Positions 7,487-8,276 of a stretch of 64,000 nucleotides of DNA are shown one piece after another; the stretch's first letter is position 1, and each line of letters opens with the position of its first letter. The DNA comes from Endomicrobium proavitum. Lineage in GTDB: Bacteria > Elusimicrobiota > Endomicrobiia > Endomicrobiales > Endomicrobiaceae. The notes beneath the pieces are model-generated. The model did not search any database and was not told the DNA's origin. It saw only the letters and a program-made list of their open reading frames with translations. The stretch spans positions 124,001-188,000 of the forward strand of contig NZ_CP009498.1 of NCBI RefSeq assembly GCF_001027545.1, given 5' to 3'. The translations under genes were made by a program, and so were the position numbers.

Positions 7487-7513
7487 TTGTCATTGTTTGT
7501 CAAAAAATATGAT
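7487..7513 (+). promoter_or_regulatory. Possible promoter upstream of the (GACA)17 tract
   Basis: TTGTCA (7487-7492) and TATGAT (7508-7513), each 5 of 6, but with a short 15-base spacer. If used, the transcript would run through the GACA tract and into the terminator at 7710-7748. Confidence 0.35.
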
Positions 7514-7588
7514 AACATCTTTTGTTAGATTACCATTTTTTACTACAAACACAACTGAGAAAATCAGGACGTCTTTCGCTTTCAAAAA

Positions 7589-7656
7589 GACAGACAGACA
7601 GACAGACAGACAGACAGACAGACAGACAGACAGACAGACAGACAGACAGACAGACA
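7589..7656 (+). repeat. (GACA)17 tetranucleotide tract
   Basis: 68 bases, 17 uninterrupted GACA units. All forward frames are open across it and encode a repeating R-Q-T-D peptide. ATG 7509 would give 54 residues ending at TAA 7671-7673; TTG 7522 would give 72 residues ending at TGA 7738-7740 inside the terminator. Neither start has a ribosome-binding site. Long tetranucleotide tracts mutate by strand slippage; Haemophilus surface genes use GACA and similar tracts for phase variation. Confidence 0.97.
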
Positions 7657-7709
7657 ACCACTACCTGCAATAAACAGATACAGGTTACAAACAATATATT
7701 ATTTTTCTT

Positions 7710-7748
7710 AATCACATCTCTTTTTAATTTAGAGATGTGATTTTTTTT
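7710..7748 (+). terminator. Rho-independent terminator between the GACA tract and the OmpA-like gene
   Basis: 12-base stem (7710-7721 with 7731-7742), 9-base loop, then T6. It stands 21 bases before the OmpA-like gene, so a transcript from upstream would either stop here or read through into the adhesin locus. Confidence 0.88.
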
Positions 7749-7769
7749 ATTTTTATAATTGAGGGATAA

Positions 7770-8276
7770 ATGAAAAAAATCATTACGCGGTTAAACGGTT
7801 TTATTTTTGCGTTGGCGTTAATTTGCGCATTATTAACTGTTGTTTGCAAACTTTCGTTTGCGGGCATAGCAGAGAAAGCGCAGGAAAGTAAGCTTCAGTC
7901 TGTAAAGATTGCGCAGTTGTCGTCGGGCAAGCCTCATATTAAACCATTTAACGCCGGACTTATGCATTTTGATACCCGCAAATATAACATATCGCCGCAA
8001 ACGCAGGCAGAGTTAAAAATTCTTGTTAAAGAAATAAATCAGTTTGAGTATGATGAAATTATAGTTGAAGGTCATACGGATTTTGAAGGAAGCGGTTCCG
8101 GTAATATTGAGCTTTCTAAAAACCGCGCAAAAGCCGTTTACGGTGAGCTTTTGAAACTTGGCGTTCCGCCGGCAAAAATAAAATATTACGGTTCGTCGTC
8201 ATATAAACCTAAAGCGGAAAATTATACAACTCAAGGAAAAGCCGCAAACCGCAGAGTTGAGATATTTGTAAAATAA
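7770..8276 (+). CDS. Exported OmpA-domain protein (peptidoglycan-binding)
   Basis: 168 residues. The N-terminus is a signal peptide or anchor (hydrophobic residues about 9-30, then an alanine-rich turn). The rest is one OmpA C-terminal-type domain (about 60-168): the core motif VEGHTDFEGS, the NRAKAV helix and the AANRRVEIFV terminus are clear. Such domains bind diaminopimelate peptidoglycan in the periplasm. It closely resembles the OmpA domain fused to the end of the 1866-residue autotransporter two genes downstream, so the two probably share an origin. RBS GAGGG lies 7 bases before the ATG. Its exact role (linking the wall to the outer membrane, or supporting the adhesin) is inferred. Confidence 0.85.
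   Translation: MKKIITRLNGFIFALALICALLTVVCKLSFAGIAEKAQESKLQSVKIAQLSSGKPHIKPFNAGLMHFDTRKYNISPQTQAELKILVKEINQFEYDEIIVEGHTDFEGSGSGNIELSKNRAKAVYGELLKLGVPPAKIKYYGSSSYKPKAENYTTQGKAANRRVEIFVK

Follow-up and report, generated by a model that had tools for sequence, protein, structure and literature searches.

A tandem GACA repeat in leader reading frames as the likely variable element of transcription attenuators ahead of surface-protein genes in Endomicrobium proavitum

Introduction

What does a run of 17 GACA units do when it stands, open in all reading frames, between a candidate promoter and a terminator-like hairpin just upstream of genes for an adhesin and its glycosyltransferase? The question arises at one locus (locus A) of Endomicrobium proavitum Rsa215, a free-living termite-gut isolate sequenced with PacBio (PMC4505116). 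The genome is a single contig of 1,588,979 bases, of which bases 124001–188000 form the 64,000-nucleotide stretch analysed here (the window); coordinates refer to the window unless given as genome coordinates. Here we describe the anatomy of this locus, its recurrence at 14 loci in the organism and its relatives, and the readings that this anatomy allows.

Results

A preliminary description of locus A had reported 17 perfect GACA units open in every frame, a strong terminator 21 bases before an OmpA-like gene and a TTG-start frame ending within that terminator, and all three statements hold. The (GACA)17 tract lies at 7589–7656 on the plus strand (17.25 units when counted over 7588–7656), and its three open frames each encode (RQTD)n. 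Behind it, a hairpin of the form AATCACATCTC-loop-GAGATGTGATT at 7710–7742 (plus strand, folding dG −14.9) is followed by a T-run at 7743–7749, a terminator-like arrangement whose hairpin scored better than 60/60 shuffled versions of the 130 nt that follow the repeat (z −6.4). A simple terminator scanner reported none at 7430–7800, probably because its loop limit is 8 and the loop here is 9. From 7748 it is 21 nt to the first gene, at 7770–8276, which encodes an OmpA-domain protein (Pfam OmpA 9.4e-16); a TibC-like adhesin glycosyltransferase at 8312–9670 (TibC_1st 6.1e-36, Glyco_transf_9 7.2e-07) and an AIDA-type adhesin with an OmpA tail at 10024–15624 (AIDA 2.5e-37, OmpA 1.2e-17) follow on the same strand.

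The three frames that leave the tract end at separate places, all of them before the gene start at 7770. An ATG at 7509–7511 opens a tract-crossing frame that stops early, at the TAA of 7671–7673 (predicted OFF); a TTG at 7522–7524 opens the one that stops inside the hairpin, at the TGA of 7738–7740 in the 3′ arm (predicted ON); and the third frame ends at a TAA at the hairpin foot (7709–7711). Which start would serve the leader is uncertain, since ATG 7509 overlaps the only candidate −10 of the locus, and a leader begun at TTG 7522 would be nearly leaderless. The candidate promoter itself (plus strand, 7487–7513; TTGTCA at 7487–7492, an unusual 15-nt spacer and TATGAT at 7508–7513) was picked by eye and is weakly supported; the promoter scanner missed it as it accepts spacers of 16–18 nt.

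The second tract of the window, at locus B, has 10 GACA units at 30115–30154 (plus strand, as are the following features). Upstream lies a candidate promoter at 30036–30064 (TTGTTT, 17 nt, TATAAT; judged by eye, its first hexamer weak, and not listed by the scanner), then a leader ATG at 30106–30108 (MIYRQTD...) preceded by AAAAAAGAGAAAAAAT. Downstream is a terminator-like hairpin at 30225–30260 (z −4.7; 0/60 shuffles scored as well). The leader frames stop at 30163, 30218 and 30309, and the last of these stops overlaps, as ATGA, the ATG of a gene at 30308–32647 for the N-terminal part of an autotransporter with no Pfam match of its own; the remainder, with the beta-domain, lies in another frame at 32739–36077 (Pfam Autotransporter 2.1e-34).

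From this anatomy, we consider it likely that the GACA run acts as the changeable part of a phase-variable transcription attenuator. An upstream promoter would give an RNA starting with a short leader ORF that holds the GACA run. GACA copies would probably be gained and lost at random and, because the unit is 4 nt long and the tract is open in all frames, one unit more or fewer puts the exiting ribosomes in a different frame. In the OFF frame, ribosomes would stop 3–15 nt past the tract and leave the RNA free, so that the hairpin could fold and transcription would end; in the one or two ON frames, they would reach the foot, the loop or the far side of the hairpin and prevent folding, and the surface genes would be transcribed, at locus A those for the OmpA-like protein, the TibC-like glycosyltransferase and the AIDA-like adhesin. 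The sequence itself shows the tract, the hairpins, the layout of the three frames and its recurrence at 14 loci; the transcription start, leader translation, slippage in cells and read-through are the steps that we infer. Loss of mismatch repair was considered as a cause of slippage and is not supported, as mutS is present.

A pattern search of the genome in all four repeat phases (16 nt plus a boundary base) turned up nine tracts of 16 nt or longer, two in the window and seven elsewhere. In genome coordinates, they lie at 131588 (A), 154115 (B), 367690 (C), 477904 (D), 520016 (E), 1360039 (H) and 1408343 (I) and, on the minus strand, at 643011–643076 (F) and 861045–861149 (G). Their lengths run from 9.25 to 58 units, and tract C is interrupted by a single base. 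The 155,007 bases surveyed, which comprised the window and seven 13,001-base stretches picked for holding the other tracts, contained no perfect period-4 repeat reaching 14 nt other than GACA. All nine tracts precede surface-protein genes or, at G, a TibC-like gene and then its AIDA adhesin. By Pfam, the downstream genes are OmpA-domain, TibC-like and AIDA-like at A, TibC-like then AIDA-like at G, OmpA-tailed giant proteins with Chlamydia-PMP repeats at C (3281 aa) and D (2376 aa), and OMP_b-brl barrels at E, H and I. At B and F stands an autotransporter in two frames, the first piece without a Pfam match and the second with the beta-domain; the frame split within 30308–36077 at B recurs in the copy at F (L053).

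Several further features of these genes were recorded. The two TibC-like genes, 8312–9670 at A and L054:9262–10617 (minus strand) at G, share the same N-terminus behind different GACA leaders, and an extra OmpA-like gene stands before the TibC-like gene at A and not at G. The AIDA-type adhesin of G (L054:3223–8829, minus strand) bears a Pfam ART-PolyVal domain (ADP-ribosyltransferase-like) at residues 1616–1734; the locus A adhesin had no Pfam match to ART-PolyVal at 0.001.

Of the 95 class members searched, eight genomes, that of E. proavitum included, contain GACA runs reaching 24 nt, and all eight belong to one family (8/76 within it, 0/19 outside). Patterns of 17 nt were also used, two of the phases over the 76 family genomes and two over 41 genomes only. 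Neither these nor the search for at least 24 nt gave a GACA match in the three other genomes of the genus. Three other genera of the family hold five leader-type tracts, named here by their genomes (G004, G008, G021, G088 and G089); among these five, a downstream barrel gene was confirmed by Pfam for G088 only, and the contigs of G004, G008 and G021 end 237–292 nt after the tract. Draft contigs also begin or end inside GACA (G007 C20; G024 C2, C12, C16 and C18; G017 C273; G018 C63), and switches in the relatives are therefore probably under-counted; the contig-end tracts of G007 C20, G017, G018 and G024 C18 were placed in neither the leader-type nor the in-ORF group.

Other tracts of the relatives lie within genes. 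GACA stands inside methyltransferase-domain genes (G007 C166, G024 C2) and inside HsdS-like genes (G024 C16 and C12, G053), the classic arrangement for such repeats, and, in G046, inside an open frame of 529 codons. A run of 4.25 units in G058 has no long ORF across it and was placed in neither group. The HsdS-like genes are type I restriction specificity genes, and their tracts make phase-variable DNA methylation a candidate in the family.

Fold-based scoring was applied to the hairpins of all loci. A hairpin with a T-run was found behind 14/14 leader-type tracts, nine in E. proavitum and five in its relatives, and its score beat all 60 shuffles at 13 loci and 59/60 at G021. At the nine E. 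proavitum loci, it lies 36 to 107 nt after the tract. Scores ranged from −12.8 to −27.4 for the leader-type tracts versus −1.9 to −7.1 for five in-ORF tracts of relatives. The simple scanner reported both hairpins at I, no terminator at B or E, as at A, and none on the plus strand at H. The hairpin of E is weak (−10.8), the best frame there reaches its foot only, and the E leader folded as a whole takes another structure. We also looked in the spacers for a conserved hairpin that might act in pausing or antitermination; the minimum-energy folds compared showed no common structure, with good folding at H (z −3.9), G088 (−3.3), I (−2.6) and G004 (−2.5) but not at E (+0.3), B (0.0) or D (−0.1).

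Barrel genes of relatives that lack GACA served as a contrast. Of 30 barrel-gene loci, 17 without GACA were inspected and 14 were usable (L102, L103 and L114 were left out), and 3/14 had a hairpin that scored below −15 and lay within the final 200 nt. At two of these, L113 and L100, a promoter-like stretch was seen by eye after the hairpin; L116, with a hairpin 33 nt before the gene and no obvious promoter, is an exception to the contrast. No tetranucleotide tract was found at the TibC relatives L066, L067, L068 and L091 (4/26 loci), of which L091 is cut off within the gene. The contig of L068 is binned as Planctomycetota, and its TibC relative, 63% identical to that of the window, sits in a GC-rich context; it may reflect horizontal transfer or mis-binning.

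A start codon (ATG or GTG) in a tract-crossing frame was present within 110 nt at 14/14 leader-type loci, ambiguously at A. At B, E, F, G, H and I it lies 4–10 nt upstream of the repeat, and in G088 and G089 29–30 nt upstream; at C and D an ATG is found about 70 nt before the tract and, in frame with it, another start at 15–19 nt. The promoter region, ribosome site and start are common to B, G and I (77–130 nt, 76–87% identity); F shares only the last 36–37 nt of this upstream region, without the −10, and H aligns with it in forced alignment only. A promoter scan covered five loci (A, B, E, H and I). Only at E did it place a consensus promoter, TTGACA-TATATT, directly upstream of the leader; the promoters proposed at A, B, H and I are weaker sites judged by eye.

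The same scan bears on a competing explanation, in which the hairpin is the ordinary terminator of the preceding unit (at A, the tRNA-Gly/tRNA-Leu run), the repeat lies in the 3′ region of that unit and the surface genes have promoters of their own. No good terminator was found between the tRNA-Leu gene, which ends at 7433, and tract A (best −5.5), and promoter-like sites that overlap or follow the hairpin at A and B also speak for it. One site at A (TAGAGA-18-TATAAT, 7730–7759) overlaps the hairpin, another falls between tract and hairpin, and the total of three on both strands is at chance level (1.6 expected); at B, TTTATA-16-TACAAT (30264–30291) lies between hairpin and gene, likewise at chance level, with two sites found versus 1.5 expected. 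However, the hairpin-overlapping site at A would be expected to start RNA at about 7766 and so remove the GAGGG ribosome site of the 7770 gene; the preceding gene has a separate terminator of its own at G and H and lies on the other strand at I; and the scanner found no plus-strand promoter-like site between hairpin and gene at E, and no consensus promoter at H or I, either upstream of the leader or after the hairpin. We regard an ordinary terminator as distinctly unlikely and retain the attenuator as the preferred reading, less firmly at A, where the leader start and the promoter are uncertain and a chance-level site overlaps the hairpin, so that the separate start named in the preliminary description as its refuting condition keeps some probability.

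At 14/14 leader-type loci, one frame stops no more than 15 nt after the tract and at least one runs uninterrupted as far as 4 nt short of the hairpin foot or beyond, both the 15-nt limit and the 4-nt tolerance having been chosen after the stops had been seen. When each spacer was shuffled with its dinucleotides kept (5,000 rounds), the mean was 5.9 loci, and 14 were reached in 0/5000. Partial homology links C to G, B to D and F, and in some measure A to H, so the 14 loci do not count as independent. Leaving out three near-copies (D, F and G) gave 11/11 (mean 4.7; 2/5000), a separate run in which B was absent as well gave 10/10 (1/5000), and a strict set gave 7/7 (mean 3.0; 18/5000). Early stops alone are weaker evidence, as shuffles produced them at 7/7 loci in 515/5000 and at 14/14 in 51/5000. 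At all 14 loci, 30–69 nt separate the early stop from the hairpin. In E and G089 the middle frame ends 11–12 nt before the hairpin and was assigned to neither the OFF nor the ON class; the long frame of G008 runs past the hairpin. The five in-ORF tracts of relatives form a contrast: they have one long open frame and no strong hairpin.

This layout weighs against a reading in which tract length itself tunes expression, through promoter or UTR spacing, RNA stability or ribosome loading, and the reading frame is irrelevant. Simple sequence repeats (SSRs) are known to work by altering the spacing within a promoter or UTR, and the lengths seen here, 9.25 to 58 units over the nine tracts, would suit such tuning; but a three-frame arrangement reproduced in none of 5,000 shuffles is not one that chance predicts, and the tracts stand downstream of the candidate promoters. 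Length tuning is, in our judgement, very improbable.

A third reading keeps the frames and dispenses with the hairpin: an early stop would expose the RNA to Rho, or a long leader would feed ribosomes to the gene by translational coupling. Rho is encoded in the genome. At F, as at B, the long leader frame ends in ATGA and overlaps the gene start, and at D, the only such locus among the nine, it is in frame with the gene and fuses to it. Yet for polarity alone, the hairpins and T-runs present at all nine tracts would be superfluous, and the distance from hairpin to gene, 41 nt at E, grows to about 330 nt at G and about 600 nt at C, where the gene start lies far beyond any leader stop. Rho-dependent polarity or coupling in place of the intrinsic hairpin therefore seems unlikely to us, and attenuation at the hairpin remains the preferred reading.

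If the frames are read in this way, the start is clear at eight E. proavitum loci, and seven of these (B, D, E, F, G, H and I) are in the early-stop frame and hence predicted OFF; C is in a long frame, and the state of A depends on its start. At a chance of 1/3 each, at least 7/8 OFF has a probability of about 0.003. The excess fits selection for OFF in pure culture, though all tract lengths are those of a single assembly. States in the relatives are mixed, G004 and G008 being in the early frame, G021 and G088 in the long frame and G089 in the intermediate one.

The sequences on the two sides of the tracts fall into modules. Upstream, B, F, G and I are of one type (1) and C and D of another (2); downstream, B, D and F form type x, with 59–60/60 bases identical next to the tract, and C and G form type y (58/60 identical; 97.7% over 133 nt). 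All four combinations (1x, 1y, 2x and 2y) are present, and on either side the homology extends to within 4 nt of the repeat. These combinations would be most simply explained by exchange in or close to it and, because all four occur with their junctions at the tract, the tracts have probably also served as recombination points. We go one step further with a proposal to which we give a little less than even weight: the nine GACA leaders might form one combinatorial regulon, in which the tract is both slippage switch and recombination hinge: crossing-over within the repeat would re-plug surface genes behind other leaders, and slippage would set each of them ON or OFF.

Discussion

A search of the open literature, covering titles, the starts of abstracts and text passages, returned only Streptococcus gallolyticus as a described case of phase variation by leader-frame attenuation. 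In the portions covered, two lactobacillus papers report having searched the region ahead of a pilus operon for elements of the S. gallolyticus type without finding them. No paper on a phase-variable surface system in Elusimicrobiota was found by title, and the main text of a 2024 Endomicrobia genome paper, as far as it was covered, mentions no phase variation, adhesin, autotransporter or tandem repeat; a 2017 analysis of E. proavitum fell outside the search. We read the GACA leaders as a probable further case of the mechanism known from pil1, on an unusual genomic scale, in which module swapping at the tract is the least expected part.

If our reading is correct, leader-frame attenuation would be a convergent and general strategy, used at nine loci and in other genera of the family; Elusimicrobiota would gain a phase-variable surface system; and repeat number would predict the ON or OFF state of each adhesin from sequence alone. 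The GACA leaders would then also bear on surface variation in free-living relatives of flagellate endosymbionts.

Two classical systems share part of this logic. Contingency genes of the Haemophilus lic/lgtC type carry tetranucleotide repeats inside the ORF and, like the loci described here, combine such a tract with frame-dependent ON/OFF states and surface genes. In E. proavitum, however, the GACA tract occupies a leader ORF of its own, with a terminator behind it. An in-ORF contingency gene was accordingly rejected for locus A, where all three frames end before the switched gene; among the nine tracts only that of D has a frame running into the gene, which makes D intermediate. The family also has GACA within methyltransferase-domain and HsdS-like genes, as in the contingency genes. 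In trp-type attenuators, translation of a leader peptide controls whether an intrinsic terminator forms, as we propose for the GACA leaders. Unlike those attenuators, the GACA leader strings together R, Q, T and D codons with no single sensed amino acid, shows no consistent extra hairpin before the terminator among the minimum-energy folds, and would have its state set by the DNA sequence.

The layout itself is that of the pil1/pil3 loci of S. gallolyticus (Danne et al. 2014, PMC3894217). In both organisms, a repeat whose unit is not a multiple of 3 lies in a short leader ORF, an intrinsic terminator separates the leader from surface-structure genes, and, as at pil1, one frame ends well before the hairpin and the others just upstream of or within it. 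At pil1, the low-expression frame ends 39–49 nt before the hairpin, whereas frames giving high expression end inside it or just 4 bp upstream; strains in which the gap is 28 nt or larger have the mostly low profile of the wild type (PMC3894217). The mechanism was proven there with repeat variants, chloramphenicol, and terminator and start-codon mutants: deletion of the terminator locked expression high, with an 11-fold pilB transcript, a start-codon/ribosome-site mutant was homogeneously low, and a three-stop mutant was uniform and slightly higher than expected; trp-type attenuators are discussed alongside the system (PMC3894217). Because the layout found here is the one proven for pil1, the attenuator idea is well supported by anatomy. 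The suggestion in the preliminary description that repeat number could exert attenuator-like control thus gains from the 14 leader-type tracts and the pil1 precedent, as a conclusion drawn from anatomy.

The differences from pil1/pil3 are those of material and scale. Function is proven for pil1, and the E. proavitum leaders are known from their sequence; the repeat is GACA rather than GCAGA, the host belongs to Elusimicrobiota rather than being a streptococcus, and the genes encode outer-membrane adhesins and barrels where those of S. gallolyticus encode sortase pili (PMC3894217). Unlike at pil1/pil3, the long frame reaches the gene start at three E. proavitum loci, and the leaders number nine against two, with promoter and gene modules swapped at the GACA tract.
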